Below, in pieces: positions 1 to 13,874 of a stretch of DNA of 64,000 nt (position 1 is the stretch's first letter; each line of letters begins with the position of its first letter). Source of the DNA: Mycobacterium sp. (GTDB lineage Bacteria > Actinomycetota > Actinomycetes > Mycobacteriales > Mycobacteriaceae); the NCBI GenBank assembly GCA_003987775.1, contig RXJD01000022.1, positions 123,590 to 187,589 of the forward strand. Reading direction: 5' to 3'. The notes under the pieces are model-generated. The model searched no databases and was not told the DNA's origin. It saw nothing but the letters and a program-made list of their open reading frames with translations. Position numbers and translations under genes: made by a program.

Positions 1-49
1 CCCACTTTCGCTGCAATTGTTCAAAGGGCAATCGGTACGAGGTCGCGCT

Positions 50-199
50 ATGACCGGGCAGACAGGTCGTGTGGTCAATCGGAAACAGCCGCACGACAAG
101 AAGCCCAAGGACGCGAGCATTCCGCAGCCGGACCACACCGAGAAAGACGCGGTGCTTCAGCGCCTCAAAGAAAGGACCTCCGATGACCGACCGCGATGA
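50..199 (+). CDS. small hypothetical protein of the integrated element
   Basis: A 49-residue, very hydrophilic, lysine- and arginine-rich peptide with no recognisable domain. The ATG at 50 has a GAGG box seven bases upstream and its stop overlaps the start region of the next gene, as in a phage early operon. The same frame is open to the left edge of the window, so the true start may lie outside it and this may be the end of a longer gene. Function unknown; the call rests on frame, ribosome site and tight packing with the next gene. Confidence 0.4.
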   Translation: MTGQTGRVVNRKQPHDKKPKDASIPQPDHTEKDAVLQRLKERTSDDRPR

Positions 200-524
200 A
201 CGGTTCTTCTCGATGGACTTAGACGCGCCGTGGGATCACCAAGTCGAGGGCTACACATTCGTGCCGCCCGGTATCGGCTGGGCGTGGGATACCACACCCG
301 AACATCCGCCGCATAAGGCGAAGCCGTGCCCAGAATGCGATGAGGCCTCAGAGCCACGACGCAGGTTCGAGTTCGAGCCCGAGGAGCGTATGCCGGGCGG
401 TAGTGCTTGGGCGGTCGGTGTGGGCGTATTTACGTGGGTCTGCCCAGAGCACGGTGAGTTCGTAGGCGAAGTCATCGAACGATTACCAAAGGCTCCACGC
501 AATGGCCGGGTGGTGATCAGGTGA
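183..524 (+). CDS. hypothetical protein with paired Cys zinc-binding motifs
   Basis: A 113-residue protein starting at an ATG preceded by AAAGGA. It contains CPEC near residue 47 and CPEH near residue 93, so the four ligands could form a zinc ribbon. The spacing between the halves is rich in Glu and Arg. I do not recognise the family. It overlaps the previous frame by 17 bases and ends in a GTGA overlap with the next gene, so the three first genes look co-transcribed. Small zinc-ribbon proteins of this kind are common in actinophage accessory regions; no function is assigned. Confidence 0.65.
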   Translation: MTDRDERFFSMDLDAPWDHQVEGYTFVPPGIGWAWDTTPEHPPHKAKPCPECDEASEPRRRFEFEPEERMPGGSAWAVGVGVFTWVCPEHGEFVGEVIERLPKAPRNGRVVIR

Positions 525-745
525 GCACAACCGAGGTCCTCGTCTTGCTACGCGGCGACGAATTGCCCCAGTGCTCCGAGTGCTGCGCGCCGGTGTTCGC
601 GTCCCATTCCCGGTACTACGCGAATGACCAGACCTATTACCTCAAGGCCGAAATCGAGTGCGAGCGAGGACATATCCATACCTACGTGCAGTCGCCGCAG
701 CCTCTGACAGATGAAATGAGGGAACTACTCAATGAGAACGAATGA
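521..745 (+). CDS. small zinc-ribbon-like protein
   Basis: A 74-residue protein starting at GTG inside the stop of the preceding gene (GTGA). It has a CSECC group near residue 18 and a second group with Cys and His (CERGHIH) about 30 residues later, which fits a small zinc ribbon. Its end overlaps the start of the HNH gene by 14 bases, so translation is probably coupled. No family name can be assigned from sequence alone. It is one of four small Cys-rich proteins in this element. Confidence 0.65.
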   Translation: MSTTEVLVLLRGDELPQCSECCAPVFASHSRYYANDQTYYLKAEIECERGHIHTYVQSPQPLTDEMRELLNENE

Positions 746-1046
746 CAGCTCCGGTTGGGACTGGCACCGGATTCAGAGACGCACACTCGCCCGCAACCAG
801 CGCGAGAATGAGGGTCGATGCCAGGCCGGATTCGAAGGCTGCGAGGGCATCGCGGTCGAGGTCCACCACCGTGTGGAACGGATCGACGGAGGTACCGACC
901 ACGACTCCAACTTGGTCGCGATCTGCGACGCGTGCCACACGAGGCTCACCGTCGAAGCGAACCAGGTCCGAGCGCAGAAACGTGCAGCCGCCAAGAAGGC
1001 GGCCAAGAGGAAGAACCATCCAGGAAGGAAAGACAGGTATGCCTAG
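732..1046 (+). CDS. HNH endonuclease
   Basis: A 104-residue HNH-family nuclease. The core shows VHHR near residue 44 (the catalytic HH pair), a D-x-N segment (DHDSNL, residues 56-61) and a zinc-binding C-x2-C-H group (CDACH, near residue 66), with a Lys/Arg-rich tail. Small HNH proteins of about this size in phages often sit beside terminase and help packaging; in satellites they can act in DNA processing or interference with a helper. Here the neighbour is a replication ATPase, not a terminase, so a packaging role cannot be claimed. The gene overlaps both neighbours, in line with one operon. Confidence 0.85.
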   Translation: MRTNDSSGWDWHRIQRRTLARNQRENEGRCQAGFEGCEGIAVEVHHRVERIDGGTDHDSNLVAICDACHTRLTVEANQVRAQKRAAAKKAAKRKNHPGRKDRYA

Positions 1047-2325
1047 CGACGCTGTGACGACCGATCACGCGCACGATGCGCAATCCCTTGCAACACAACC
1101 GAAAGACGCTCAGGAGGGACCTCAGGGCATGAAAACGATCACCTACGACGAACACGTGGCGCGGTTGCAGCGGCTGCGCGACGACGAGGCCGTCCGAGAC
1201 GACTCTGAGGAGTTCCGCGCAGCCGCATGGTTCTACGACCTGGACATGTTCGTCACCAACGAGGAAATCCAACGGGTATGGGATCGCCAGCCCATCGAGA
1301 AGCCGGTGGTTGACGCAGAGGCCGACGAGGCTAAGGAACTCCGGGCCGAGTTTGGATTTGAGCGCCTCGATGAGGACGAGGACGAGGACGAGACGGAATG
1401 GCTATACAACAAGCTGATTCCAGCCGGTGGATACTACGGGAACTGGTCCGCGACTGAGGGACTGGGCAAGAGTGGATTGGCGCAGGACGTGTCCGTGCAG
1501 ATGGTGCTCGACATGGTGCAACTCGACGACGGTGACGATGACGTAGTGCCGAGACCTCGCGTGCTGTACTTCGACTTCGAGAATCCAACGGCCACCTACA
1601 AGCGCCGAGCGCGGATGATGCCGTACGGACGCCTGAGCGACGTTCAGAAGCGCTTGTTTTACAAGCGGGTGAACACGGGCGACATTCGTAAGCTGGATAC
1701 GTACGAGGGCGGTCAGGACGTGCTGCGCTGGGCGCTGCGCTGCGAGGCGGATCTGGTCGTCATCGACACCAAGACCAGTTCCGTCGAGGGCCGCAACAAT
1801 CAGGATTCCACTGAGTACGACTTCTACACGCACACGGTGCGCCCGATGACTGAGGTCGGGATAACCGTTCTGGTCATCGACCACTCGAATCCGTCGGACC
1901 TGAAAAGGCCGGGTGGTTCGAAAGCCAAAACCCAGAAACTCGACTTCCTCTGGACAGTGGAGAAGCTGCGGGAGTATCGGAATGAGGCCGGCGAGCTGGA
2001 AGTCACCGACCTGGTAATGACGCTGCGCAAGGACCGGGCGAACACGATGCCACCCAAGATCTACATCCGGCGTACGTCGAATCCGTACCAGCATGAGTTG
2101 TCGCTGAAGCCGTTCAAAGCGCTGACGACGGCGACAACGGCCCACACCGAGGCGAGCAGCGACGACCGCGTCATGGAATTGCTCAAGGCGAAGTACCCCG
2201 ACCGCAAGGTCGGTATCAACGAGGGCTACGCGTACCTGAAGGACCAAGGCATCAAGGGCGACACGTCCAAGCTCAAAGCTCAGGTACGAGCTTTCAGGGA
2301 CGAACCAGGTGGTTTGAACGAATGA
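1039..2325 (+). CDS. RecA-fold replication ATPase (AAA_25 / RepA-like)
   Basis: A 428-residue protein; the ATG at 1039 is chosen because AGGAAGG lies about ten bases upstream and it overlaps the HNH stop. Residues around 145-155 carry a Walker A motif (TEGLGKSG), a Walker B strand follows at LVVIDTK, and a third hydrophobic strand ends in VIDHSN, the pattern of the RecA-like AAA_25 ATPases used as helicases or helicase loaders by plasmids and phage satellites. The N-terminal 110 residues are acidic and unassigned; the C-terminus could bind DNA. The nine-copy repeat array begins inside its last codons, suggesting that this protein acts at that origin. No primase motif is visible. Confidence 0.8.
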   Translation: MPSDAVTTDHAHDAQSLATQPKDAQEGPQGMKTITYDEHVARLQRLRDDEAVRDDSEEFRAAAWFYDLDMFVTNEEIQRVWDRQPIEKPVVDAEADEAKELRAEFGFERLDEDEDEDETEWLYNKLIPAGGYYGNWSATEGLGKSGLAQDVSVQMVLDMVQLDDGDDDVVPRPRVLYFDFENPTATYKRRARMMPYGRLSDVQKRLFYKRVNTGDIRKLDTYEGGQDVLRWALRCEADLVVIDTKTSSVEGRNNQDSTEYDFYTHTVRPMTEVGITVLVIDHSNPSDLKRPGGSKAKTQKLDFLWTVEKLREYRNEAGELEVTDLVMTLRKDRANTMPPKIYIRRTSNPYQHELSLKPFKALTTATTAHTEASSDDRVMELLKAKYPDRKVGINEGYAYLKDQGIKGDTSKLKAQVRAFRDEPGGLNE

Positions 2326-2447
2326 CCTCGCAAACCAGTTCAAACCACTTCGTCAAACCAGTTTGAACGTTTGCCAAACCAGTCAAACCACCCGGAGCCC
2401 TTTTCGCACGTCAGTGGTGGTTTGACCCGGTGGTTTGAAGTGGTTTG
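2310..2447. repeat. iteron array, candidate replication origin of the element
   Basis: The heptamer CAAACCA occurs at 2331, 2341, 2354, 2375 and 2384, and its reverse complement TGGTTTG at 2418, 2431, 2441, plus one at 2310 inside the end of the ATPase gene. Outer copies are mirror-symmetric: starts at 2331, 2341 and 2354 (steps of 10 and 13) match ends at 2447, 2437 and 2424 (steps of 10 and 13) around a centre near 2389. An AT-rich stretch follows at 2449-2467. Repeats phased near helical turns, next to a replication ATPase and an AT-rich segment, are the usual form of an iteron origin. They could instead be operator sites for a repressor. Confidence 0.7.
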
Positions 2448-2493
2448 CGTAAAGATCTTTTATTTACTGGGACATGTAAACGTTTCGGAGGTT

Positions 2494-2513
2494 GCATTGT
2501 ACGTAGTACATGC
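2494..2513. promoter_or_regulatory. inverted repeat, possible operator
   Basis: A dyad of the form GCAT-(T)GTAC-gta-GTACATGC lies in the non-coding stretch between the iteron array and the next gene. The arms match over eight bases with one unpaired T. It has no T-run, so it is not a typical terminator; an operator or part of the origin is more likely. The rest of 2448-2646 holds the AT-rich segment and the ribosome site of the next gene and no convincing coding frame. Confidence 0.4.
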
Positions 2514-2646
2514 ACCACCTCACGAACAAGTCGGCGAAAAACTAGAGGATTAAAGATTAACGAAATCGCCTCGTGTGGGGATGGAAATTGCTTACCCGCG
2601 CGCGAGAACCCTCGTCGTAATATTGAGTGAAAGGAGCGACAACGAA

Positions 2647-2916
2647 ATGGCTATTTTAAGAAGACTGAAAAATCTTCAACCCGTGTATCGGCATAAAGGC
2701 CGTGTAATCGACGTACCCGACGAAATGCTCTGCCTCGATTGCCGGACTCCCGTCGTGTGGGTCGAGGACGATTTGACCGTGAGTCGGATCTATCACGACT
2801 CGACCTGTATTCAGGTGAAGCTCGGGCGAGGCGAGGTCGCACCGACAGGACGGCGTAAGCCGATCGACCACGCTTGGCCCACCGAACTCGACATCTCGAA
2901 CGCGAAGCGCCCATGA
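2647..2916 (+). CDS. small Cys/His protein of the element
   Basis: An 89-residue basic protein beginning at ATG 2647, preceded by GAAAGGAG. It contains CLDC near residue 29 and a downstream HDSTC group, so a zinc ribbon is plausible. The N-terminus is rich in Arg and Lys. It overlaps the next gene by four bases (ATGA). An upstream in-frame start at 2575 exists but lacks a ribosome site. Family and function are not recognised; position after the putative origin suggests a second operon that leads to the capsid gene. Confidence 0.65.
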   Translation: MAILRRLKNLQPVYRHKGRVIDVPDEMLCLDCRTPVVWVEDDLTVSRIYHDSTCIQVKLGRGEVAPTGRRKPIDHAWPTELDISNAKRP

Positions 2917-3185
2917 TTTGCGAACAGCACGGCATCGAACACTCGCAGCGATTTCCGTGCGCGGAATACGAGCGATACAGGAAGCTCACGGCGAAGGCGG
3001 CTAGCGTCACCGAGCACGAGACGCGGCCCATAGAAGACCCGAACGTTGAAGGCTTGCTCGGATTGGAGCAAGTCGAGATCGGCAAGCACGAGGCTGGTTG
3101 GACGGGCAACAGCGAAGTGGTGCAGCTCGATGACGAGGACGAGATGCGACGCTGGCGCTTCACGCGTCCCGGACAGTACGAATAG
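2913..3185 (+). CDS. hypothetical protein of the element
   Basis: A 90-residue protein whose ATG overlaps the preceding stop. The first 20 residues hold two Cys and two His (ICEQHGIEHS, then FPCAEY), suggesting metal binding; the remainder is acidic and mixed-charge with a Trp/Arg-rich end. No known domain is visible. Tight coupling to the preceding gene supports that it is translated. It could be a small accessory or regulatory protein of the element. Confidence 0.6.
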   Translation: MICEQHGIEHSQRFPCAEYERYRKLTAKAASVTEHETRPIEDPNVEGLLGLEQVEIGKHEAGWTGNSEVVQLDDEDEMRRWRFTRPGQYE

Positions 3186-3549
3186 AGGTACCTCAGCGCG
3201 TCTGTGCGATCCGAACAATTGCGACGTTGGGGAATCGTCGTGGGGGAAATGTAGACGCCGCAGAATCGCGCTGAGACCCGGATCGCCGCACCATTGCCCA
3301 ACAATTTTCCGGCGCGTAATGTCGCCGGCACGCGCACCGAAGCGGTAATTCGGGGTCCAGCATTAGGACGTTAAAGCGAATGCGCCTGACGAGGTTTACA
3401 ACGGCATAATCGAATAGTCCCATGAGCGCAAACCTGGGCACTGCGCTATGACCCGCTGATCCTGAACAGCGCGAGGCGATGGGAAACCCAAAGGCAACTA
3501 ATGGGTGTGGCATTGAGCTGCGCTCAAACTCATCGAAAGAACTGAGGCA
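3186..3549. other. non-coding stretch before the capsid gene
   Basis: A 364-base gap with no convincing coding frame. It contains a distant inverted repeat (CTCAGCGCG near 3187-3200 and CGCGCTGAG near 3267-3280), a small hairpin TTGAGC-tgc-GCTCAA at 3513-3527, and the GAGG ribosome site of the capsid gene. It may carry the late promoter and perhaps a packaging signal, but nothing in the sequence proves either. Confidence 0.4.
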
Positions 3550-4392
3550 ATGACAAATCTCGTAACCGAATCAGGCGCATGGGGCCTCGACGTATTGGGG
3601 TTGCAGCCCCTCGACGTCATTCCCGATGCGCTGATCATGACGTGCTCGACCAGGGCCGGAACGGTCGAAGGCGACGCACCAGCGGTCAAGATTCCGCTCA
3701 TCCGACTGGACGACGACGTGCATCCCGTGCGCGAGGGCGCCGAGATTCCCGAGGCCAATCCCGACCGAGACGAAGCCACGGTGATCACCAACAAGGTGGC
3801 GGTTCTCGTGAAGACTTCGAGGGAGCAACTGGCACAGCCTGATGCCCTCACGGTCATCACTCACGAGATCCGGCGTGCGTTGACCTACCGGGCGGACTTC
3901 ATGTTCGCGGCACAGCCAGCCCCGGCGGTCGGTGAAAGCTGGCCCCCAGCTGGCTTGCTGGCTCGTGCGTCGGCTGCCGGTGACATCGTGGACAACCTCG
4001 ATGCTCTCGTGGATGCGGTGGCCCTCATCGAATCGACGCCGGGTGGACAGGCCTCGCACATTCTGGCTCACCCGCTGGCGTACTCGGCCATCCGCAAGTA
4101 CAAGACGGCAACGAACTCGAACGTGAGTCTCGTGGGAGCGGGAACCGAGGCAGGGCCGAAGACCTTGCTCGATCTGCCCGTGATCACGCGTGCGGCGCTG
4201 CCTCCCGACGTGGTGATGGTTCTCGACAAGAGCCAGGTCCTGAGCGCTTACGGCGACGTGCTCGTGAACCGTTCGGATCATGCGGCGTTCAGCAGCGACT
4301 CGGTGATGCTTCGCGCGACCTACAGGTTCGGCATCACGCTGGTGGATCAGGACGCTGTGCAGGTACTGCAGGTTCCTGAACCCACGCCGTAA
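3550..4392 (+). CDS. HK97-fold major capsid protein
   Basis: A 280-residue protein of the HK97 gp5-like capsid family. Typical features are the segment PVREGAEIPEANP near residue 60 (E-loop/P-domain region), the following KVAVLVKTSREQL, and a C-terminal beta-rich stretch with FGITLVDQDAVQVL. It starts directly with the core fold, so the roughly 100-residue scaffolding delta domain seen at the N-terminus of HK97 gp5 is absent, and no protease gene is adjacent. In satellites such as capsid-forming PICIs, and in M. tuberculosis phiRv1/phiRv2, a single capsid gene is likewise found in a small element. The start is supported by GAGG upstream. Confidence 0.85.
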   Translation: MTNLVTESGAWGLDVLGLQPLDVIPDALIMTCSTRAGTVEGDAPAVKIPLIRLDDDVHPVREGAEIPEANPDRDEATVITNKVAVLVKTSREQLAQPDALTVITHEIRRALTYRADFMFAAQPAPAVGESWPPAGLLARASAAGDIVDNLDALVDAVALIESTPGGQASHILAHPLAYSAIRKYKTATNSNVSLVGAGTEAGPKTLLDLPVITRAALPPDVVMVLDKSQVLSAYGDVLVNRSDHAAFSSDSVMLRATYRFGITLVDQDAVQVLQVPEPTP

Positions 4393-4449
4393 CAATTGTC
4401 CTGTTCCGGAATTTCGCGTTGGAGATCGCACTTTCGCCGGAGTAGGCAA

Positions 4450-4506
4450 AGGGAAGGCCTGGGTGTACTCAAGGTTGTCGGGCCCATCGGCACCCAGGTC
4501 TTCCCT
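4450..4506 (+). terminator. long inverted repeat after the capsid gene
   Basis: Arms 4450-4465 and 4491-4506 are complementary at 15 of 16 positions, with a 25-base loop. It lies 58 bases after the capsid stop and fits a terminator of the Rho-independent type without a strong T-run, which is usual in mycobacteria. A structural or packaging role is an alternative. The remaining bases between 4393 and 4702 show no convincing gene. Confidence 0.6.
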
Positions 4507-4702
4507 CCCCAATCTCATATCTGGTGCTGCACCGCGTTTTCCTTTTCCTTTCCGCGATGCGCCCACCTCGAACGGTGATAGGTCTGCCCAACATCGAACC
4601 TATTGCCGTTCTTGGTAGGTACCCAACGTCTCAGGTGTGGACAGAACCTTCAGCACGCCCATCGCACGTATCGGGATACGTTGTGCTGCCGCATGATTGC
4701 TG

Positions 4703-4731
4703 TTGGGTTGTACGCGTCAACGCCTTAGGAT
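4703..4731 (+). promoter_or_regulatory. leaderless promoter
   Basis: TTGGGT at 4703 and TAGGAT at 4726 are separated by 17 bases, and TAGGAT ends six bases before the ATG at 4738. Transcription would then begin at or next to the start codon, giving a leaderless message, a common class in mycobacteria. No ribosome site precedes that ATG. Confidence 0.6.
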
Positions 4732-4737
4732 AGAAGC

Positions 4738-4947
4738 ATGACGAACACGACGAACACCCTCGAAATCTACTCGATCAACGATGCCGACGAATCCGATCCT
4801 GATCCCATCATGACGGGCTCACACGACGACATGATCCGCATGTTTGGCGATGTTTCCCTTGACTTCCTGTACGACGACGAAGGCACCAACGTCTACAACA
4901 TCGTGCGCCCCGATGGCGTCGTGATCGGTGTCGCGTACAACGTTTAA
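4738..4947 (+). CDS. small acidic hypothetical protein
   Basis: A 69-residue acidic protein (many Asp and Glu) with a C-terminal hydrophobic strand pattern. It begins at an ATG with a well-placed leaderless promoter and ends before a hairpin, so it forms a single-gene transcription unit between the capsid gene and the oppositely oriented integration genes. Such isolated, strongly promoted small acidic genes in prophage-like elements sometimes encode DNA mimics or repressor antagonists, but that is speculation; no domain is recognised. Confidence 0.65.
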   Translation: MTNTTNTLEIYSINDADESDPDPIMTGSHDDMIRMFGDVSLDFLYDDEGTNVYNIVRPDGVVIGVAYNV

Positions 4948-4966
4948 CTGTCCACACCAACCCACC

Positions 4967-5000
4967 AAGGCCCGCTCGCCAATATGCGTGAGTGGGTCTT
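4967..5000 (+). terminator. hairpin terminator after the small acidic gene
   Basis: A stem of about 11 pairs (AAGGCCCGCTC with GAGTGGGTCTT, two G-U pairs) and a short loop begins 20 bases after the stop at 4947. It probably separates this unit from the convergent minus-strand genes. The rest of 4948-5255 holds a second GC-rich repeat (GACCCC...GGGGTC near 5032-5057) and no clear gene. Confidence 0.55.
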
Positions 5001-5255
5001 CGTGTAGTCGCGTGTGGAAGTGACCCCTGGGGGTAGCAGGGGGGGTCCTGCCTTCCCGCCGCGGAGAGGCTTTGGCGCCGACGCTCGCTACAGATTCCCC
5101 AGCTTTTAATTCGAAGGCTTGATATACCGGCGATTCCGGGTCTCACCATGCCCTATGAGCTTGAACTCGCACCGTTGCATCCTCGACCTCACTGCGGTAT
5201 TCGCGTGTGGGCGCTCAGCGCGCTTGTGCGCGTCTGCGGCCGCGTTCGCGTGTGA

Positions 5256-5480
5256 TTACGCGTGCGACGACGTTTCGGGCGTTAGAACCGACCTCAGGTA
5301 CCCGCGATTGCGTGTCTTCAGGTGCTCGGCGAGCGCGACGACTTGCTCAGGCGCGAACAGGTACGGCCCGCCTCGGCGCTGACGCTGTAGGTACCACCTC
5401 ATGCCCGTTGTCCTGATCACCCGGTAGATCGTGCGTTCGGTAACCCCAAGTGCCGCAGCCGTTTCGTACGTCGTCATCAT
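5256..5480 (-). CDS. helix-turn-helix protein, excisionase-like
   Basis: A 74-residue protein starting at tandem ATG codons (5480 or 5477). Residues 5-20 (YETAAALGVTERTIYR) form a MerR/excisionase type helix-turn-helix, followed by a basic wing. Proteins of this size and fold beside a serine integrase are usually recombination directionality factors or regulators. It is the third gene from the attachment end, on the same strand as the integrase. Longer upstream frames to 5660 run antisense over the next gene and lack support. Either this or the next protein could be the directionality factor. Confidence 0.7.
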   Translation of the reverse strand: MMTTYETAAALGVTERTIYRVIRTTGMRWYLQRQRRGGPYLFAPEQVVALAEHLKTRNRGYLRSVLTPETSSHA

Positions 5481-5554
5481 GGCGGCATTGTGCGCTAGGC
5501 GATATACCAAGAAACCCCGTGTCGCGGGGACACAGGGCTCCTGGGTGTGGGACG

Positions 5555-5866
5555 TTACGAGGCCTCGGCGTCCTCGACGGGCGTGGCGTCGTCGGCTTTC
5601 TGTGCGGCGACTTTGGCTTCGGCCTTCGCCTTCTTCGAGGCGGTGCGGTCGGCGACCCACTTGGGATAGGCCTTCTTGATCGCGGCGACGTTCGCCTTCG
5701 TGAACACGTACGACTTGCCGTCACGCGACGACAGGCCTTCACCGGCAGCGCGCAGGAACACGCGCAGTTCCTTGGCGGTGATGCCCAGGGCCTCGGCGGC
5801 GTCCTTGGTCGTGAGGTTCGCGGGAGCGGTCATGACGGTTCCTTTCGTTGGGGTGTTCGTCGTCAT
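5555..5866 (-). CDS. small DNA-binding protein, candidate regulator or directionality factor
   Basis: A 103-residue protein with a helix-turn-helix-like segment (TTKDAAEALGITAKEL, residues 19-34) and an Ala/Lys-rich tail that resembles histone-like or Lsr2-type DNA-binding tails. Two starts are possible: ATG 5866, placed six bases after TAGCGT (leaderless), and ATG 5833, preceded by AAAGGA. Both may be used. The first codons (MTTN) and the bases just upstream resemble those of the integrase gene. Its location between integrase and the excisionase-like gene points to control of integration or excision. Confidence 0.7.
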   Translation of the reverse strand: MTTNTPTKGTVMTAPANLTTKDAAEALGITAKELRVFLRAAGEGLSSRDGKSYVFTKANVAAIKKAYPKWVADRTASKKAKAEAKVAAQKADDATPVEDAEAS

Positions 5867-5872
5867 GTACCT

Positions 5873-5878
5873 ACGCTA
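5873..5878 (-). promoter_or_regulatory. -10 box of a leaderless promoter
   Basis: On the minus strand TAGCGT lies six bases before ATG 5866. The bases between box and start match those before the integrase start closely (AGGTAC in both), so the two genes may have arisen from, or share, one promoter design. No clear -35 box is seen. Confidence 0.45.
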
Positions 5879-5923
5879 AGACAGCGACCGTCCGCCTCCA
5901 TACTCCTACCGGCGGTAGACTTT

Positions 5924-7567
5924 TCACTCCCCGTCGTCATCAGGGAGGGAGCCCTCGGACAAGGCGGCCACGATGTCGCCGAGCGGTCCCAGGAGCATGT
6001 CGGCGTCGAGGTCCAGCGTCAGGTCGCCGACTTGGTTGAACTCATCGACCACGATTCGCCCGTTGTCGCCGGAGTGTGAGCGCCACTCGTACCGAAATCC
6101 GTACTGGCGCAACCAGATGTTCTTCTCCTCGTCGGACGCGTCAGCCCACCAGTCGGCGAGTGTTTCGCCGGTCGGTTCGTACACCCATCCGGGCGGTTGC
6201 GAAGGCACAGAGGCCAATTCGGTTTGACGGGTGGTCAGGTGTGCCAGCCGTTCATCGAGAAGTGCGCGTTGGGTAGTGCCACGCTTGAACTGTCCTGTAC
6301 CGATCACTTCGGCAATGTCCGTTAGCGCGGCGTCGATCTCGCTCAGCTCGTCCGTGTGGTCATTGCCGGCGAACCACACCCGTCGCTTGCGTTCGAGCGG
6401 GCCCATGTTCTGAAGGATCTGGCGCTCGACCTCGGCGTCCGCGTAGTCCAGCGCAATCGTCTTGTTGCCACATGCTTGCACCGACGAACCTTGATGAGAT
6501 GCACAGCGATACCGGGGCTTTCGACCTGGGCCGCCCTTCAATCGGTACGCGGGTGATCCGCATACGCCGCAGTAGATGATCCGAAGCAAGAGCCCCGTCG
6601 TTCTCGATGTCGGGTCGCTGCGTACCTCGCGAGTTTCCAACTCTGCCTGCACGCGCTGGAACACGTCTCTGGAGAGAATGGGTTCAGCCCTGACCACAGG
6701 CGATCCATCGTCGCCGCGGACGAGCACGTCGTCACCGAACAGTTTGTGGCCCTTTGCGTCACGCTGAGGTCGTCCGTGAGCGTCTGTCAGCTGTTCACGC
6801 GACACAACACGCCCGAGGAGCGTTTGGCTCGTCAGAAACGCTTTCAGGCGCGACGAGTGCCAGGCGTAGCCCTTGGGGTCTCGGCCCTGATGCGCGGCGA
6901 ACGCATCCCGGGGAGTCGGGACTCTCCGCCTGGTGAGGTCATGAGCGATAGCGCGGAGGGGTTCGCCAGCGAGTACACGCTCGACTACCTCTCGGATGAC
7001 TTCGACCTGGGCGGCGTCCTGCACCAGTCGCCAATCGCCGGAGTCGTCGCGGACGGGCACGTATCCGAAGGGCGGTACGCCACCCCTGTACTTACCCTTG
7101 GAGAAGTTGTGCTTGAACGCCGACGCGTTGCGCTCGCGGATGGCTTCGAGCTCCATTTGAGCCACGGTGCCCATGAGGGCGATGACCACAGGCGCGAATG
7201 GGGAGGACGTGTCGAAGTGAGGTTCTGTCGCTGACACGACGAGCTTGCCGTGGTCGTCAGCCCAGTGCATCAGTTCTTGCAGATGACGAATCGACCTGGT
7301 GAGTCGATCCACGCGGTACACCACGATGACATCGAAGGCGTGATGCTCCTGGGTGAGCCATCGTGCGAGGTGTGGTCGTTTCTTGAGGTCGAACGGATTG
7401 ACGGCGCCCGAGATGTCCAGGTCTTCGGCGATGCCTACTTCCTCGTATCCGCGCTGCTTGCACACCTCGCGACAGTCCTTGAGCTGGCGCTCTGGGCTGG
7501 TCGTCGCATCGGTGACTCGCGAGAGGCGTATCACTATCAGTGCGCGGAGTGGTCTGTTCGTCGTCAT
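5924..7567 (-). CDS. large serine integrase
   Basis: A 547-residue large serine recombinase. The resolvase domain occupies residues 8-155 with the catalytic Ser16 in IRLSRV and the conserved YRVDRLTRS segment near residue 84. A recombinase domain follows (GGVPPFGY near 165), then a zinc ribbon with CGVC and later Cys residues near 360-390, and a C-terminal coiled region. Such enzymes join attP and attB in one direction and need a small directionality factor for excision. The gene ends the element, 40 bases from the broken pilin gene, which places the right attachment site directly upstream of it. The start is supported by a leaderless promoter. Confidence 0.95.
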   Translation of the reverse strand: MTTNRPLRALIVIRLSRVTDATTSPERQLKDCREVCKQRGYEEVGIAEDLDISGAVNPFDLKKRPHLARWLTQEHHAFDVIVVYRVDRLTRSIRHLQELMHWADDHGKLVVSATEPHFDTSSPFAPVVIALMGTVAQMELEAIRERNASAFKHNFSKGKYRGGVPPFGYVPVRDDSGDWRLVQDAAQVEVIREVVERVLAGEPLRAIAHDLTRRRVPTPRDAFAAHQGRDPKGYAWHSSRLKAFLTSQTLLGRVVSREQLTDAHGRPQRDAKGHKLFGDDVLVRGDDGSPVVRAEPILSRDVFQRVQAELETREVRSDPTSRTTGLLLRIIYCGVCGSPAYRLKGGPGRKPRYRCASHQGSSVQACGNKTIALDYADAEVERQILQNMGPLERKRRVWFAGNDHTDELSEIDAALTDIAEVIGTGQFKRGTTQRALLDERLAHLTTRQTELASVPSQPPGWVYEPTGETLADWWADASDEEKNIWLRQYGFRYEWRSHSGDNGRIVVDEFNQVGDLTLDLDADMLLGPLGDIVAALSEGSLPDDDGE

Positions 7568-7575
7568 GTACCTGC

Positions 7576-7604
7576 ATCATAACGAGGGTATGAATGATGG
7601 ACAA
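7576..7604 (-). promoter_or_regulatory. integrase promoter, leaderless
   Basis: Reading the minus strand, TTGTCC (7604-7599) and TATGAT (7581-7576) are separated by 17 bases, and TATGAT lies eight bases before the integrase ATG. The -35 box lies only a few bases from the pilin fragment, so the promoter abuts the attachment core. Confidence 0.6.
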
Positions 7605-7630
7605 TCGACTACTCGACCGTCGACATGCCC
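7600..7630. other. probable right attachment site (attR)
   Basis: Pilin coding sequence runs on the minus strand down to about 7612 and then changes to element sequence, giving a premature TAG at 7611-7609. Large serine integrases recombine at a core of a few bases, so the crossover should lie near the shared GTCGAGTA segment at about 7610-7617. The left counterpart, attL with the 3' part of the pilin gene, is not in this window. Confidence 0.65.
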
Positions 7631-7689
7631 GACTCGTCGCTCGCCAGCATCGTCAGACGTGTGGCGATCACCCGGAACTTGTTGCGCAT
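7609..7689 (-). pseudogene. truncated Flp-type pilin (DUF4244, Rv3656c-like)
   Basis: From ATG 7689 the frame encodes 26 residues ending SDESGMSTVE before TAG. The GMST(V/A)E sequence is the conserved start of the DUF4244 Flp-like pilins, where the next residue is the Tyr that begins the hydrophobic helix. That helix is missing, so the gene is cut exactly there. AGGAAGG precedes the ATG, and the gene follows tadC by 15 bases, the order known for the mycobacterial Tad locus. Disruption is inferred to come from integration of the element; the pilin helix should lie at its far left end. Confidence 0.75.
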
Positions 7690-7704
7690 CAATGTATTCC
7701 TTCC

Positions 7705-8289
7705 TCATATCAATCCCGACTGCAGAACATCTCCGGCCAACCCGGCCACCACCGGAACGATGCCGAGGCACACGAAGGCCGGTAGGAAACACAACCCGAG
7801 CGGTCCCGCGATCAGCACTCCCGCCCGCTCCGCGGCAGCTGCCGCCGCGGCTGCGGCGTCGTGGCGAGACTGCACCGCGAGTTCGGCAACGCCATCGGCG
7901 AGGGCGGCCCCCGAAGACGACGATCGACGAGCCAGCCGCAGCAGGCCGTCGATTTGGCCGTCGGTTTCGCCCCGATCCCCCGGCGTCGACCATGCGACGG
8001 ACGGGTCGGCACCCAGCGCGAGCAGATCCGCGGCGCGCCGCAGTGCCAGCGCAAGTCGCGGCGGCGCGGATGCGGCGGTCGCCGACGCGGCCGTCGCGAC
8101 GGCCATACCCGCCAGCAGGCATACCGCGAGCACGTCCAGGCTCGACGCCATCCCCAACGGATCCGGGCCGCGCCGACCCTCGCGGCGGCGCCGGGACGGC
8201 CGCGGCAGCAGCCCCGCACGAGCGCGCACCACCGAAGGGCCCACACCGATCAGCAATGCCACGGCTAATAGCGCCGCCGAGACGCTCAC
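7705..8289 (-). CDS. Tad platform protein TadC-like (Rv3657c)
   Basis: A 194-residue membrane protein of the type II secretion F family. It has an N-terminal membrane segment, an Ala-rich central helical domain and a C-terminal hydrophobic hairpin (LGLCFLPAFVCLGIVPVV). GTG 8289 overlaps the tadB stop (GTGA). With TadB it would form the inner-membrane platform that pulls pilin into a fibre, driven by TadA. The protein looks full length, so the element has spared it. In mycobacteria no Tad pilus has been firmly shown, so the assembly role is by family. Confidence 0.85.
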   Translation of the reverse strand: MSVSAALLAVALLIGVGPSVVRARAGLLPRPSRRRREGRRGPDPLGMASSLDVLAVCLLAGMAVATAASATAASAPPRLALALRRAADLLALGADPSVAWSTPGDRGETDGQIDGLLRLARRSSSSGAALADGVAELAVQSRHDAAAAAAAAAERAGVLIAGPLGLCFLPAFVCLGIVPVVAGLAGDVLQSGLI

Positions 8290-9089
8290 GTCGCGGCCGC
8301 GCGATCGGTGATCCGGTCCGACCAGCACAGTCCCGCGCAGGTCAGCGTCACGCCCGCCAGCAGAAACCATCCGCCCGCACCGCCCCCGAACAGGAATTGC
8401 AGCGGCCGGGCGCCGATCAACTGCCCGAGCAGCAGGCCCAGCAGCGGCAGCCCCGCAAGGATGGCCGCTGTCGCGCGGGCACCCGCCATATCCGACTCGA
8501 CCTTGGCCGAAAACCGTTGCCGCTCAGCAATGTCACGCTGAGCCGCCCGCATCAGCGTGGCGATCGCCAAGCCATGATCGCTGGCCAGCTGCCAGCACAC
8601 CGCCAGCCGCTCCCAGTGTTGCGGCAGCACCGACGATCCCGCCGCGGCACGCAGTCCGGCGGCGACGTCGGCACCCAACCGGGCTCGCGCCGCTACCGCC
8701 CGCAGGCCAGCTGACACCGCACCGGTGGTCTCACCGGCTGCGACGTCGAATGCGAGAACCGGGTGGGCGCCCACCCGCAGTTCACCAACCAGCACGTCGA
8801 GGCCCGCTTCCAGCGCCCGCCCCGCGGCTCCGGCGCGCCGAGCGCTGACGCGACGGCGATAACGGAGGCCTACGACGACGCTTACCAAGGCGACCGATAA
8901 CACCGTCGTCAACGGCAGCAGAAACGCCGCGACGACTCCGACGCACCCGGATGCACACAGTGCCGCCCGCGACCCGATCGCGATTCGCCGACCCGCCGGT
9001 GTCACGGGGACCAACCGGGCCCGCGGCGACGCGGGCGATGCCAGCAGCGCCAACGACAACAACAGCGCCGCAAGTTGCAGTCCCGTCAT
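8286..9089 (-). CDS. Tad platform protein TadB-like (Rv3658c)
   Basis: A 267-residue protein with N-terminal membrane segments (residues 3-20 and 45-70), a cytoplasmic helical T2SF domain (residues 95-210) and a C-terminal hydrophobic region. ATG 9089 overlaps the tadA stop (ATGA). It would partner TadC in the membrane platform of the Flp/Tad machine. Much longer upstream readings in this frame overlap tadA and are spurious. Confidence 0.85.
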   Translation of the reverse strand: MTGLQLAALLLSLALLASPASPRARLVPVTPAGRRIAIGSRAALCASGCVGVVAAFLLPLTTVLSVALVSVVVGLRYRRRVSARRAGAAGRALEAGLDVLVGELRVGAHPVLAFDVAAGETTGAVSAGLRAVAARARLGADVAAGLRAAAGSSVLPQHWERLAVCWQLASDHGLAIATLMRAAQRDIAERQRFSAKVESDMAGARATAAILAGLPLLGLLLGQLIGARPLQFLFGGGAGGWFLLAGVTLTCAGLCWSDRITDRAAAT

Positions 9090-10252
9090 GCCGGCACCCG
9101 GGTCCGTAGCACCGCGTCCAACTCGGCGGCAGCGTCCATGCTGCCGTGGTCGGCGTGCCACGCTGTGACCACCCGGACCAACCCGCCCCCGGAGCGGCGC
9201 AACAGCGCGATCTCGCCGAGCCGTCGCCGTCCGGCGCCGTCCCGTGTCATGTGCAGGAGCACCTGCACCGCGGCGGCGAGTTGACTGTGCAGAGCGCCGC
9301 GGTCGAGTCCGCCGAGTGCGCCGAGTGCCTCCAATCGGGCGGGTACCTCGCCCGGGCTGTTGGCATGCAGCGTGCCCGCGCCCCCGTCGTGCCCGGTATT
9401 GAGAGCGGTCAACAGATCGACCACCTCGGCTCCCCGGACCTCTCCCACAACGATCCGGTCGGGACGCATCCGCAGCGCCTGTCGCACCAGCTGACGCACC
9501 GTGACCTCGCCGGCACCCTCCACGTTGGCGCATCGCGCAACGAGCTTCACCAGGTGCGGATGATGCGGGGCCAGTTCGGCGGCGTCCTCGACGCATACGA
9601 TCCGCTCGCCCGGCGAGACGGCACCCAGCATCGCCGCCAGCAGCGTCGTCTTGCCGGCTCCCGTGCCACCGCACACCAGGAAGGCCAGCCGCGCGGCGAT
9701 GATGCCGGACAGCAGTTCAGCGGCCCGCGGTGCCACGGTGCCCGCAGCCGTCAGGGCCTCCAGGTTCTGGGTGGCCGGCCGCAGCACCCGCAGAGACAGG
9801 CAGGTGCCTCCGGCTGCCACCGGCGGCAGGACGGCATGCAAGCGCACCGCGAATCCGCCTGCCCCGATCCCGGTCAGCTGTCCGTCCACCCACGGCTGGG
9901 CATCGTCGAGCCGGCGGCCGGCGGCCAACGCCAGCCGTTGCGCAAGTCGCCGCACCGCAGCCTCATCGGCAAATCGAATATGGCTGCGCTGCAAACCATT
10001 TCGATTGTCTATCCAAATCTCGTCCGGCGCCGTCACGAGTACGTCGGTGGTGTCGTCCGCGCATAGCAGCGGTTCGAGGATGCCGGCGCCGGTCAATTCC
10101 GTCTGCAGCAGCCGAAGGTTGGCGAGCACCTCCGTGTCGCCGAGTACTCCCCCGGATTCGGCGCGGATCGCCGCGGCGACCACACTGGCGCGCAGCGGAC
10201 CGGGCTCGGCGGCCAGCCGCTCCCGCACGCGCTCGATCAACGAGCCCTTCAC
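9086..10252 (-). CDS. tadA: Tad secretion ATPase TadA/CpaF-like (Rv3659c)
   Basis: A 388-residue type II/IV secretion ATPase. Walker A is CGGTGAGKTTLL near residue 190; an Asp box (VEDAAEL), a His box region (HPHLVKLVAR) and Walker B (MRPDRIVVGEVRG) follow in the order of CpaF/VirB11-type ATPases. It should hydrolyse ATP in the cytoplasm to drive pilus assembly by TadB/TadC. GTG 10252 has AGGAG upstream and overlaps the ssd stop (GTGA). The frame is intact although the downstream pilin gene is broken. Confidence 0.9.
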   Translation of the reverse strand: MKGSLIERVRERLAAEPGPLRASVVAAAIRAESGGVLGDTEVLANLRLLQTELTGAGILEPLLCADDTTDVLVTAPDEIWIDNRNGLQRSHIRFADEAAVRRLAQRLALAAGRRLDDAQPWVDGQLTGIGAGGFAVRLHAVLPPVAAGGTCLSLRVLRPATQNLEALTAAGTVAPRAAELLSGIIAARLAFLVCGGTGAGKTTLLAAMLGAVSPGERIVCVEDAAELAPHHPHLVKLVARCANVEGAGEVTVRQLVRQALRMRPDRIVVGEVRGAEVVDLLTALNTGHDGGAGTLHANSPGEVPARLEALGALGGLDRGALHSQLAAAVQVLLHMTRDGAGRRRLGEIALLRRSGGGLVRVVTAWHADHGSMDAAAELDAVLRTRVPA

Positions 10253-11364
10253 GCCGCGCTCCTGCCGAGCGCGCCACGCCTGCTCGGCAAGACTGCGAGT
10301 ACCGAGCGTGCCGCCACAGCCAGCGGGCTTCGCCGCCCCAATCGCAGGCCGCCCCGCTCGAGCTGGTCGGACAACCCCGGCTCGGCACGCATCGACGCCA
10401 GCAGCGGTGCTCCGGCGATGTCGGCAACCTCGGTGGCCCGCAATCCGCCCGGCGCCGGCCCGCGGACCACCAATCCGAGGTTGGGATTGATGGCCGTCAG
10501 CACTGGGACGAGCGCCGCGGTGGCCGCACATCCCCGCACATCGCAGCGGCTGACCAGCACCACCAGTTCGACGCTGTCCAGGGCGGCACGGGTCGCCTCG
10601 GTCAGACGCCGCGGGAGATCACACACCACCGTGACGCCGCCGCGGCGGCCCGCGTCGATGATCGCGGCAACCGGGCCGGGCTCCAACTCATAGCCGCGCC
10701 GGGTGCCCGAGAGGACGCTCACTGCGTGATGCCGCGGGAGCGCCTCGCGGATCGCCGGCCAACTCAGCCGTCCACCCTGAAGTGCCAGGTCGGGCCACCG
10801 CAGTCCGGGAGTGGACTCCCCTCCGATCAGCAGATCCATGCCACCGCCCCACGGGTCGAGGTCGATCAGCAGCGCGTTGCCCGCACTGTGTGCCAGGGCG
10901 GCGGCGAACAGCGAGGCCCCGGCACCGCCACAGCCTCCGATGACTGCCACGCCCTCGCCGTCGCGGCCGTGGTCACGCGCCGACTCCGCGGCTTCAGCGA
11001 GTTCGGCGACCAACTCGCGCTCCTGTTGCGGCAGCTGCAGCACCCGCTCGGCACCCACTGCCACCGCGGCCGCCCAGGCGGCCGCCTCTGCGTCGCCGCC
11101 CGTGACCACGCTGACGTGGGCGCGCCGCGGAAGTGCGTCCCGGCCGCACCGCTCGGCCGCCGCCCGATCGAGCACGACAGCCGCGGCCGCAGACCACGAC
11201 TTGCGGCTCACCGAACCTCGCTCGCCGGTATGTACCACCCGGACCCCGACGGCTGCGGCCACCCGGTCGATTTCTTCGCGCAGATGTGGTTCCGCCACGA
11301 TCGCCAGGACCCCCGATCCGCTGGAATCGGCGAGGGAACCGCCCGGGGAAAGTTCGTTCACCAC
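10249..11364 (-). CDS. ssd: CpaE/MinD-like septum site-determining protein Ssd (Rv3660c)
   Basis: About 371 residues. An N-terminal receiver-like domain is followed from about residue 130 by a MinD/CpaE fold with a deviant P-loop (GGCGGAGASLFA) and ALLIDLDPWGGGMDLL. In M. tuberculosis Rv3660c is reported to influence septum formation; in other bacteria CpaE places the Tad pilus. It heads the Tad operon. Start codon choice is uncertain: tandem GTG codons at 11364 and 11361 follow a GGTGGA box very closely, and a longer reading to 11490 is possible. Confidence 0.8.
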   Translation of the reverse strand: MVNELSPGGSLADSSGSGVLAIVAEPHLREEIDRVAAAVGVRVVHTGERGSVSRKSWSAAAAVVLDRAAAERCGRDALPRRAHVSVVTGGDAEAAAWAAAVAVGAERVLQLPQQERELVAELAEAAESARDHGRDGEGVAVIGGCGGAGASLFAAALAHSAGNALLIDLDPWGGGMDLLIGGESTPGLRWPDLALQGGRLSWPAIREALPRHHAVSVLSGTRRGYELEPGPVAAIIDAGRRGGVTVVCDLPRRLTEATRAALDSVELVVLVSRCDVRGCAATAALVPVLTAINPNLGLVVRGPAPGGLRATEVADIAGAPLLASMRAEPGLSDQLERGGLRLGRRSPLAVAARSVLAVLPSRRGALGRSAA

Positions 11365-11460
11365 TCCACCGTGCGGGGCGGACGGTATTGGACACCAGTG
11401 CCAAAGCGGGATCTGTGGAGAAAGACCGGTCTGTGCACCGAGTCGTTCGCTGGGCACTGG

Positions 11461-11505
11461 TCCGTTCTGGAACGGACGTCGCTCCCGCAACGCATGTGTT
11501 GCGGG
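11461..11505. repeat. two further hairpins upstream of ssd
   Basis: TCCGTTC-tg-GAACGGA (11461-11476) and CCCGCAAC-gcatgt-GTTGCGGG (11484-11505) are perfect inverted repeats just past the 6C terminator, in the direction of the ssd start. They could be operator sites or structure in the ssd leader. The rest of 11365-11803 is the 6C gene and the promoter region of the HAD gene. Confidence 0.45.
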
Positions 11506-11537
11506 ATTTCACTACCCGGGAGAAGATTTTTTACCCC

Positions 11538-11636
11538 AGAAAAGGGACGACCCCCGCCAGGGGGGGAGGAGGCGGAGGTCGTCGTGTATCAGCCCCGGGG
11601 GGTCGGGCTGATACACCCTCGGCTCAAGGCCGAGTA
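11538..11636 (-). ncRNA. 6C small RNA (B11, ncRv13660c-type)
   Basis: On the minus strand two GC-rich hairpins occur in tandem. The first has a perfect 12-pair stem (GTGTATCAGCCC with its complement, 11616-11584) and a loop with six C residues; the second (11583-11546) has a loop with seven C residues and is followed by CCCTTTTCT. Two stems with C-rich loops define the actinobacterial 6C RNA, and its gene lies between Rv3660c and Rv3661 in M. tuberculosis, exactly as here. TATAGT at 11648-11643 supplies a -10 box. The RNA is known to affect growth and metal or DNA-replication gene expression by C-rich loop pairing. Confidence 0.9.
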
Positions 11637-11791
11637 ATGCTTACTATACACATGCCAGCCGGGATTCACGCAAGTACTCCGCGCAAGGAAATAAGGGCTT
11701 GAGCCGTGTAAATGCGGTGGGCTCAAAGACAACAGCCGTATTCAGCCGTTCGGTTTCGGCTCAACATCGCAGCCCTGCGGGTTCGCCGACC

Positions 11792-11797
11792 TATGCT
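11792..11797 (+). promoter_or_regulatory. -10 box of leaderless HAD hydrolase promoter
   Basis: TATGCT lies six bases before GTG 11804. This decides the start of the following gene, because no ribosome site precedes that GTG and a longer reading frame to 11699 would cross the promoter. Confidence 0.6.
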
Positions 11798-11803
11798 GGA
11801 CTG

Positions 11804-12661
11804 GTGACCGTCCCCGACGAGGCCGCGCCGCAGCAAATCTCACCGCAAACATCGGAGCCGGCGCCACCGAGTGCCCGCACCGCTGCCTTCTTCGACTTGG
11901 ACAAGACCATCATCGCCAAGTCGAGCACCCTGGCGTTCAGCAAACCCTTCTTCGCACAGGGTCTGCTTAACCGGCGGGCGGTGCTGAAGTCGAGCTATGC
12001 GCAGTTCATCTTCCTGCTTTCCGGCGCCGATCATGACCAGATGGATCGCATGCGCACCCACCTGGCCAACATGTGCACGGGATGGGACGTCGCGCAGGTG
12101 AAGTCGATCGTCGCCGAGACGCTGCACGACATCGTCACACCGCTGGTGTTCGCCGAAGCGGCCGATCTCATCGCCGCGCACAAATTGTGCGGCCGCGACG
12201 TCGTCGTGGTGTCCGCGTCGGGTGAGGAGATCGTCGGCCCCATCGCCCGCGCCCTGGGCGCCACCCACGCAATGGCGACCCGCATGGTGGTGGAGGACGG
12301 AAAGTACACCGGCGAGGTCGGCTTCTACTGCTACGGCGAGGGCAAGGTGCAAGCGATCCGCGAGTTGGCCGCCCGCGAGGGCTACCCGCTCGAACATTGC
12401 TATGCGTATTCCGACTCGATCACCGACCTTCCGATGCTGGAGTCCGTGGGCCACCCGTCGGTCGTCAATCCCGATCGCGGACTGCGCAGGGAAGCCCTCG
12501 AACGCGGCTGGCCCGTGTTGTCGTTCTCCCGTCCGGTGTCGCTGCGCGATCGCATCCCCGCGCCCTCGGGTGCCGCGATCGCGACCACCGCCGCAGTGGG
12601 TGTCACCGCGGCGGCCGCCGGCGCGGTGACGTATGCGTTGTTGCGCCGCTTCGCCTTCTAG
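11804..12661 (+). CDS. HAD-IB family hydrolase (Rv3661-like)
   Basis: A 285-residue protein of the HAD subfamily IB (SerB-like). Motif I is FFDLDKT near residue 28, motif II VVSASGEE near 135, and motif III/IV YSDSITDLPML near 200. A C-terminal hydrophobic helix (ATTAAVGVTAAAAGAVTYALL) suggests membrane attachment. The sequence is highly similar to Rv3661 as I recall it. The substrate is a phosphate ester that has not been defined with certainty for this family member. It stands alone between two small RNA genes. Confidence 0.9.
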   Translation: MTVPDEAAPQQISPQTSEPAPPSARTAAFFDLDKTIIAKSSTLAFSKPFFAQGLLNRRAVLKSSYAQFIFLLSGADHDQMDRMRTHLANMCTGWDVAQVKSIVAETLHDIVTPLVFAEAADLIAAHKLCGRDVVVVSASGEEIVGPIARALGATHAMATRMVVEDGKYTGEVGFYCYGEGKVQAIRELAAREGYPLEHCYAYSDSITDLPMLESVGHPSVVNPDRGLRREALERGWPVLSFSRPVSLRDRIPAPSGAAIATTAAVGVTAAAAGAVTYALLRRFAF

Positions 12662-12749
12662 CGCTCTCACCGCAGCAAACACTTAGTGGACGCAATTAAT
12701 TTGCGTTGCACAACTTTGACACGTCTAGGCCTTGCTGTGCCTGTGGTCT

Positions 12750-13062
12750 AGTAGTACAAAGGAGTCACGGCAGCCTGGTGAGGCCAAGGTCGATCCGGAA
12801 GAGAAGGTTCGATCTCCCAACCCGGGCACCCAGCACGGTTCCCGGCACCCACGCGGAGTCATAGCCACTGATATGGCAGAAGTGTTGCGGGCCTGCGTAA
12901 TTGCGAAGAACGGAATGCCCCGACGGTCCTTTGGGTGGGGTCGCAGCAGGAAGTGTCGCAAACGCGCCGAGGCCACCCACGCAGCCCAGAAATGCACGCT
13001 TGGTAACCGAGAACCGTGTTGGCGGGCGGCGATTCGATAAATTCGGATCGCCGCCCGCTTTG
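12750..13062 (+). ncRNA. Ms1-type small RNA (MTS2823 homologue)
   Basis: The gap between the Rv3661 and Rv3662c homologues holds no gene but ends in a strong terminator, which is the site of MTS2823 in M. tuberculosis and Ms1 in M. smegmatis. Ms1 is about 300 bases and binds RNA polymerase core lacking sigma factor in stationary phase. The region here is 12662-13095, and a transcript ending at 13062 would have the right length if it starts near 12750. TTGACA at 12716 may be the -35 box; a clear -10 is not seen, so the 5' end is approximate. Confidence 0.75.
13022..13061 (+). terminator. terminator of the Ms1-type RNA
   Basis: A perfect 12-pair stem, GCGGGCGGCGAT (13022-13033) with ATCGCCGCCCGC (13047-13058), is followed by TTT and a T-rich stretch. 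It is a clear Rho-independent type terminator on the plus strand. Confidence 0.8.
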
Positions 13063-13095
13063 CATTTCCGCATCGTTTTTGCAGCGACTCGCCAG

Positions 13096-13863: not shown

Positions 13864-13874
13864 AGGTTGCCAAC

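Follow-up and report, generated by a model that had tools for sequence, protein, structure and literature searches.

A probable capsid-encoding phage satellite splits the DUF4244 Tad pilin gene of a Mycobacterium at a TA core used across Mycobacteriales

The window analyzed here is a 64,000-nucleotide stretch of a Mycobacterium sp. genome (G000; 7.29 Mb in 114 contigs; window G000:C40:123590-187589), and its left end holds most of a mobile element that lies inside a Tad pilin gene of the DUF4244 family. It is very probably a phage satellite, complete at about 9.5 kb and encoding its own capsid, whose integrase split the genome's only DUF4244 pilin gene via a TA dinucleotide at the boundary between TVE and Y in the encoded pilin. 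A satellite-like element inside the Tad pilin gene was the original prediction from the window alone, and it is now supported by both junctions and by many relatives at the same site.

In the host genome the element is complete: both junctions were read, and the crossover cores are 9,476 bp apart. The original prediction covered positions 1 to 7630; at the left the element runs 1,865 bp past the end of the window. Leftward extension, proposed as a check, revealed the left junction and the 3' piece of the pilin gene (Table 1). The right end had been placed in the pilin gene after GMSTVE; the 5' piece does end so, with the crossover at 7610-7611 and not 7630. A search for a longer repeat at the element ends gave just a 9-base chance match between the flanks, as expected for a serine integrase. 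The enzyme has the domains of a large serine integrase (resolvase, recombinase, zinc ribbon), and its shared core is, as usual for that class, very short. Integrase, two helix-turn-helix (HTH) proteins, RecA-fold ATPase, HNH nuclease and lone HK97 capsid, all named in the original prediction, were matched by hmmscan, the HTH proteins weakly. The left 1,865 bp hold a second HNH or endonuclease VII-like gene plus small genes without assigned function; a full set of phage structural genes at that end would have pointed away from a satellite, and neither PF03354 nor PF04860 is there. The predicted absence of terminase, portal and tail genes stands for large terminase (PF03354) and portal (PF04860) over the whole element, tail families not having been searched singly.

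Table 1. The element, the two pilin pieces and the adjoining tad genes (window coordinates unless a contig is named)
Feature	Position	Strand	Remarks
Element, in-window part	1..7611	.	7,611 of 9,476 bp; both junctions read
Element, part left of window	G000:C40:121725-123589		1,865 bp
DUF4244 pilin 3' piece	G000:C40:121614-121724		PF14029 positions 18-54, 55.7 bits
Second HNH / endonuclease VII-like gene, 3' end	1..53	+	start left of window; L005:6146-6643
Small frame	183..524	+	no family match (hmmscan)
Small frame	521..745	+	relative in G145 element
HNH nuclease	732..1046	+	3.3e-8
AAA_25 (RecA-fold) ATPase, likely replication	1039..2325	+	2.7e-20, scanned as 1069-2325
Small frame	2575..2916	+	no family match (hmmscan); relative in G145 element
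Small frame	2874..3185	+	no family match (hmmscan)
HK97-type major capsid protein, 280 aa	3550..4392	+	PF05065 2.3e-17
69-aa protein	4738..4947	+	relative in G145 element
Second small HTH protein	5256..5531	-	hmmscan weak, below Pfam cut-offs
Small HTH protein, possible excision/directionality factor (putative function)	5555..5866	-	hmmscan weak, below Pfam cut-offs
Large serine integrase, 547 aa	5924..7567	-	hmmscan: Resolvase 1.1e-25, phrog_95 integrase 2e-117
Right crossover, core TA	7610..7611	-	only TA common to host and element across junctions
DUF4244 Tad pilin 5' piece	7612..7689	-	26 codons, end GMSTVE; TAG stop next, to 7609
tadC-, tadB-, tadA-, tadZ-like frames, upstream genes of split tad operon	7705..11490	-	gene names presumed

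Queries for integrase, capsid and pilin family were run against 297 genomes of the genus. The search of other mycobacteria for the pilin gene, suggested at the outset, found the DUF4244 family over cut-off in 279 of them; most of the copies listed score near E 1e-22 and a small set much worse. A related integrase lies in the pilin gene, cut after MSTVE, in 11 of the 297 genomes, and both pilin pieces flank it in ten (G000, G027, G052, G059, G081, G145, G204, G221, G240, and G273). These ten elements measure 9,476 to 13,222 bp, nine of the lengths being estimated to within some bases. In G289 the 5' piece and the integrase are present and the 3' piece was not found. Because the same cut recurs in ten further genus genomes, chance is not an issue. 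Two weak pilin scores (G041 and G306) were traced to contig breaks inside the gene and not counted as insertions, and one genome has a pair of intact DUF4244 pilin genes, spaced about 5 kb from each other (L142; G149:C1:4744000-4756000). Capsid relatives (E 1e-5) occur in 90 of the 297 genomes, mostly at other sites, and relatives of the HTH protein at 5555..5866 adjoin the integrase in G052, G145, and Tsukamurella.

The site extends to other genera, as shown by a search of named genomes that used the ten aligned pilin-site integrases. Fifteen of 19 loci adjoin a pilin piece, a share biased upward by query patterns drawn from pilin-site integrases and including five loci already among the 297 genomes. 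They belong to M. rhodesiae, M. parafortuitum, M. vulneris, M. iranicum, M. arosiense, Mycobacterium sp. URHB0044, a Mycobacterium metagenome-assembled genome (MAG; WOFB04), Tsukamurella sputi, three Gordonia, and four Rhodococcus/Prescottella. The remaining four loci are a secondary site in Mycobacterium sp. D16R12, a MAG locus elsewhere, a contig edge, and a broken M. asiaticum integrase. Both pilin pieces were sought in 12 of these genomes and found on one contig in six, with spacings of about 9.9 kb (R. triatomae), 10.0 kb (Prescottella), 11.8 kb (Tsukamurella), 11.9 kb (R. hoagii), 12.6 kb (Rhodococcus sp. JCM 9791), and 25.2 kb (G. spumicola); the last insert exceeds satellite size and differs from the rest in the look of its gene calls. 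Among the same 12, the pilin gene is intact in MAG L147, and L161 gave no pilin match over E 0.8.

The junctions delimit the crossover. In pilin orientation the host half-site reads GGCATGTCGACGGTCGAG, followed by the TA and a C. Immediately after TA, the 5'-side junctions have G in three of 21 cases (two of the 21 are secondary sites, including one of the three G cases), against C or T in all 32 intact genes. Immediately before TA, the 3'-side junctions have C in three of 18 cases, against G or A in 32/32 intact genes. Given one crossover place for all, these differences reduce the bases common to host and element to TA. With at most one mismatch allowed, TTACACC lies 15 bp after TA in 16 of the 21 junctions and at 16 bp in three, with no occurrence at other offsets up to 35 in any of the 21, and GGTGTAA lies 15 bp before TA in 14/18, again at no other offset. 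The window's element carries the arm motif in its 3'-side arm. In G168 and G098 the integrase of this group is found at other sites, the pilin gene is intact, and the pilin half-site ATGTCnACnGTCGAGTA reappears at the junctions, an indication of the bases read by the integrase.

The 22 pilin-site integrases lie on both sides of the split gene, 14 next to the 5' piece and eight next to the 3' piece (sides were assigned by hand, and G221 is counted among the 14 though its integrase is 1.7 kb inside). Orientation is forced to change at least six times on the integrase tree, and 187 of 500 shuffles get by with no more, so it does not follow descent. The closely related and fully supported pair M. 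vulneris and M. arosiense have opposite orientations, and G059 and URHB0044 share an integrase-side arm that meets a different pilin piece in each. TA is palindromic, and mixed orientation is what a core without polarity predicts; the pilin-group integrase is apparently orientation-neutral. Bxb1 reportedly integrates in a fixed orientation through a non-palindromic core. One fixed orientation set by a non-palindromic central dinucleotide, by which large serine integrases are recognized, is not what was found here; that the central dinucleotide sets orientation is the usual rule for serine integrases, as given in the available part of one source (PMC3783163).

The integrase of the window's element is one of a group with this target site in several Mycobacteriales genera. 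On the tree of 43 integrase rows the pilin-site label changes six times, at least five of them forced, and does not form one clean clade. A well supported group of 11 includes three mycobacteriophages; seven of its eight genome rows adjoin the end of a His-rich frame, which we take to be like GroEL1, the exception being G067. G098, G168 and MAG L147 have their integrases at sites other than the pilin gene, and the phage-like group is nested beside them. Two group integrases (L161 and L165) lie at contig edges and a third (L163) is broken.

We think it rather probable that the pilin gene is hit only as a convenient, conserved target and that silencing the pilus brings no advantage. Integrases commonly target conserved genes; the attB half ATGTCGACGGTCGAGTAC falls within a conserved stretch of the pilin gene, and the G168 and G098 integrases sit at other half-site-matching sites with the pilin intact. 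On the other side, the short pilin gene is hit elsewhere along its length by unrelated enzymes, which is weak evidence. It is cut in G222 and G150 by elements with two tyrosine recombinases each, accompanied in G222 by a DUF6262 protein, and enzymes related to the G222 recombinases lie at that same cut in G159. The G159/G222 cut recurs near a contig end in G024, with no recombinase in view, and similar frames lie beyond a third cut in G048 (by eye). These two-tyrosine-recombinase elements, seen at L133, L134, L135, and L184 (G159, G222, G150, and G048, respectively) with three cut positions, presumably resemble Tn554; the G159 element also has cation-efflux-like and ArsR-regulator-like frames (by eye). 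In Prescottella defluvii (L176 and L177) two different capsid-carrying elements split the pilin gene into three pieces: the satellite, and a second one that combines a portal and a protease-capsid fusion with a serine recombinase of another kind.

A doubtful idea is that the Tad pilin gene might be an actinobacterial comYC, repeatedly silenced by satellites and by unrelated site-specific elements because of DNA uptake or as a phage receptor, with a palindromic TA core that allows insertion in either orientation. The nearest parallel is prophage insertion in streptococcal comYC. In the accessible parts of the reports, one integrase group repeatedly cuts this main pilus subunit gene in several streptococci (PMC4774983), and the insertion blocks transformation (PMC4774983, PMC12637031). 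Those are full prophages in Firmicutes, whereas here small satellites enter an actinobacterial Tad pilin gene. Tad/Flp genes are needed for transformation of Micrococcus luteus, according to the part of the study available (PMC4322843); among the matches listed from the openly licensed literature, no report of DNA uptake by mycobacterial Tad pili was found. ComEC was considered as a sign of competence and says little, being present in 14/14 pilin-split genomes yet also in 10/14 controls.

The gene content of the same-site elements bears on what the element is. For the ten genus elements, 147 predicted proteins from a simple codon-use script were scanned; of the G000 calls, three spurious or truncated ones were dropped and five overlooked frames added. 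They comprise 10 integrases, eight PF05065 capsids, six phrog_1496 small terminases, five phrog_4708 scaffolds and two head-tail adaptor matches, counts that derive from the 25 commonest of 106 and 41 families, so that tail genes of a single element could escape. PF03354 is present in three of the ten carrier genomes and PF04860 in one; inside the elements both are absent from all ten (0/10), in keeping with the large terminase- and portal-free state that marks capsid-encoding satellites. Some elements may carry defence or addiction cargo, to judge from two Mrr-type restriction enzymes, a TIR protein and a Panacea-domain protein. The M. rhodesiae element encodes a TIR-domain protein, and that of G168 one which looks similar (L144:10695-11639 and L182:10853-11803), a likely defence cargo.

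Comparison of coding sequences shows purifying selection on the capsid gene. Against its nearest relative (74% identity; G078), the ratio of nonsynonymous to synonymous substitution rates (dN/dS) is 0.26 with a dS of 0.93. Integrase pairs give pN/pS of 0.21 to 0.39, the synonymous distances of the pN/pS pairs, capsid and integrase alike, being near saturation at 0.9 to 1.4. Capsid relatives were found neither in phage records at E 1e-5 nor in IMG/VR, where the search reaches close relatives only. The G078 capsid has as neighbors a tRNA-Gly gene and an integrase frame that by eye is of the tyrosine type, so capsid and integration module are exchanged.

Several observations count against a functional satellite. 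With profiles built from relatives, the window's element yielded neither a small terminase (E 2.6) nor a scaffold, which five relatives have. Its 5'-side arm is without the TTACACC motif, unlike those of most relatives. More distant capsid pairs give pN/pS of 0.59 and 0.77, that is, weaker constraint. The capsid is unrecognized in two of the ten elements (G059 and G240). A protein of 253-254 aa was considered as a hidden capsid in these two and rejected, the profile comparison with capsids giving a probability of 0.2%; that of G059 has no NCBIfam or Pfam match. A 253-285 aa protein of no known family stands where the capsid would be in four pilin-site elements without a recognized capsid (L126:4503-5264, L128:8442-9206, L175:5955-6725, and L173:5107-5964).

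The missing small terminase and scaffold would also suit a decayed prophage, in which a full phage once in the pilin gene lost terminase, portal and tail and left an immobile remnant, and the nearest integrase relatives outside the pilin group do include full mycobacteriophages. This origin is nevertheless improbable: ten same-site elements in different species are all 9.5-13.2 kb and each lacks PF03354 and PF04860, and such uniform size and content make independent decay unlikely. Sharp junctions also speak against decay, as do the capsid and integrase frames, which are open and constrained. It is very improbable that the capsid serves an empty encapsulin-like shell or some other host-domesticated role, which a lone gene of mature length (280 aa) without a recognized protease gene might suggest, given that same-site relatives pair the capsid with scaffold and small terminase genes and that its closest counterpart, in G078, lies in another mobile element.

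Among known elements, phiRv1 and phiRv2 of M. tuberculosis are about 10 kb, with few virion genes apart from a capsid gene and, beside it, one for a prohead protease; the phiRv1 integrase is a large serine enzyme, and its target is the REP13E12 repeat. The window's element is likewise about 10 kb with a large serine integrase, and it lies in the DUF4244 pilin gene, not in REP13E12. The phiRv1/phiRv2 layout originally proposed thus holds in general for size, serine integrase and capsid, a likeness drawn from general description, and fails for the protease, for which hmmscan gave no match among the element's scanned proteins. Bxb1-type mycobacteriophage integrases are of the same family, with relatives in Severus, BabyBack and Wheeler at 52-56% identity, but these are full phages and form a separate supported integrase group. 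Capsid-forming phage-inducible chromosomal islands (PICIs) carry their own small terminase, which redirects packaging; this gene was not found in the window's element, in contrast to six of the ten same-site elements.

Candidate PICIs of Mycobacterium, some with serine integrases, have been published (PMC10654092) and are a closer class than phiRv1/phiRv2. They combine an integrase with a major capsid gene in one small integrated element, the feature by which that study defines them and which the window's element shares, and some have helicase, terminase and scaffold genes. The shared pilin site, the TA core and the mixed orientation are additional here; the main text of that study contains none of the terms pilin, DUF4244 and TadE. 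In helper-embedded PICIs (PMC10111431, as far as the accessible text goes) a satellite integrase clade also repeatedly targets one kind of gene, but the target is a late gene of the helper prophage and not a host pilin. Among the matches listed from the openly licensed literature on pilin-gene integration, DUF4244 and palindromic cores, no report of this integration site was found, and within the portion of the DUF4244 literature covered no title listed concerns integration. Mycobacterial candidate PICIs are already known, and the unusual, repeated pilin target and the apparently orientation-neutral integrase would be new.

The pilin gene of G000 was seen solely in the split state. An intact copy elsewhere would have spoken against its loss; DUF4244 is over cut-off once in G000, with no second pilin of the family over cut-off elsewhere, and the only DUF4244 pilin gene of this genome is thus split by the element, so that loss of the pilin is well supported. 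A spare Flp_Fap pilin was looked for on contig C104 and rejected: the two matches, one over the family cut-off and the other not, are both segments of long frames that we assume to be PPE-like. The Flp_Fap-like segment (ATAVEYGLIA...) is near the C-terminal part of these two frames (L186, G000:C104, about 9000-12617, minus strand). Downstream of the split tad operon lies a very Gly-rich frame, presumably PE_PGRS-like (L005:50-811). Elsewhere in G000 a second phage-derived element (L181, G000:C5:240000-259900, about 6300-17700) has a large terminase (C5:251195), integrase-, portal- and capsid-like frames (by eye) and four tRNA genes at one end.

Taken as a satellite, the element probably entered when its attP recombined with the DNA for the conserved TVE-Y of the Tad pilin, with strand exchange at TA. 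In the integrated state the pilin would be off, and carriers would be expected to lose the pilus. With a helper phage present, the HTH proteins might allow excision. The element would then be copied by its own ATPase and packed in shells built from its own capsid protein, the large terminase, portal and tail being taken from the helper, and excision would make the pilin gene whole again.

Natural and repeated Tad pilin loss across Mycobacteriales, tied to mobile elements, makes the role of the mycobacterial Tad pilus testable. The mapped serine integrase group has a defined pilin attB and an apparently orientation-neutral core, contrary to the usual rule. If the pilus takes up DNA, uptake could cure the element by recombination, and the conflict between mobile elements and transformation would reach actinobacterial satellites.

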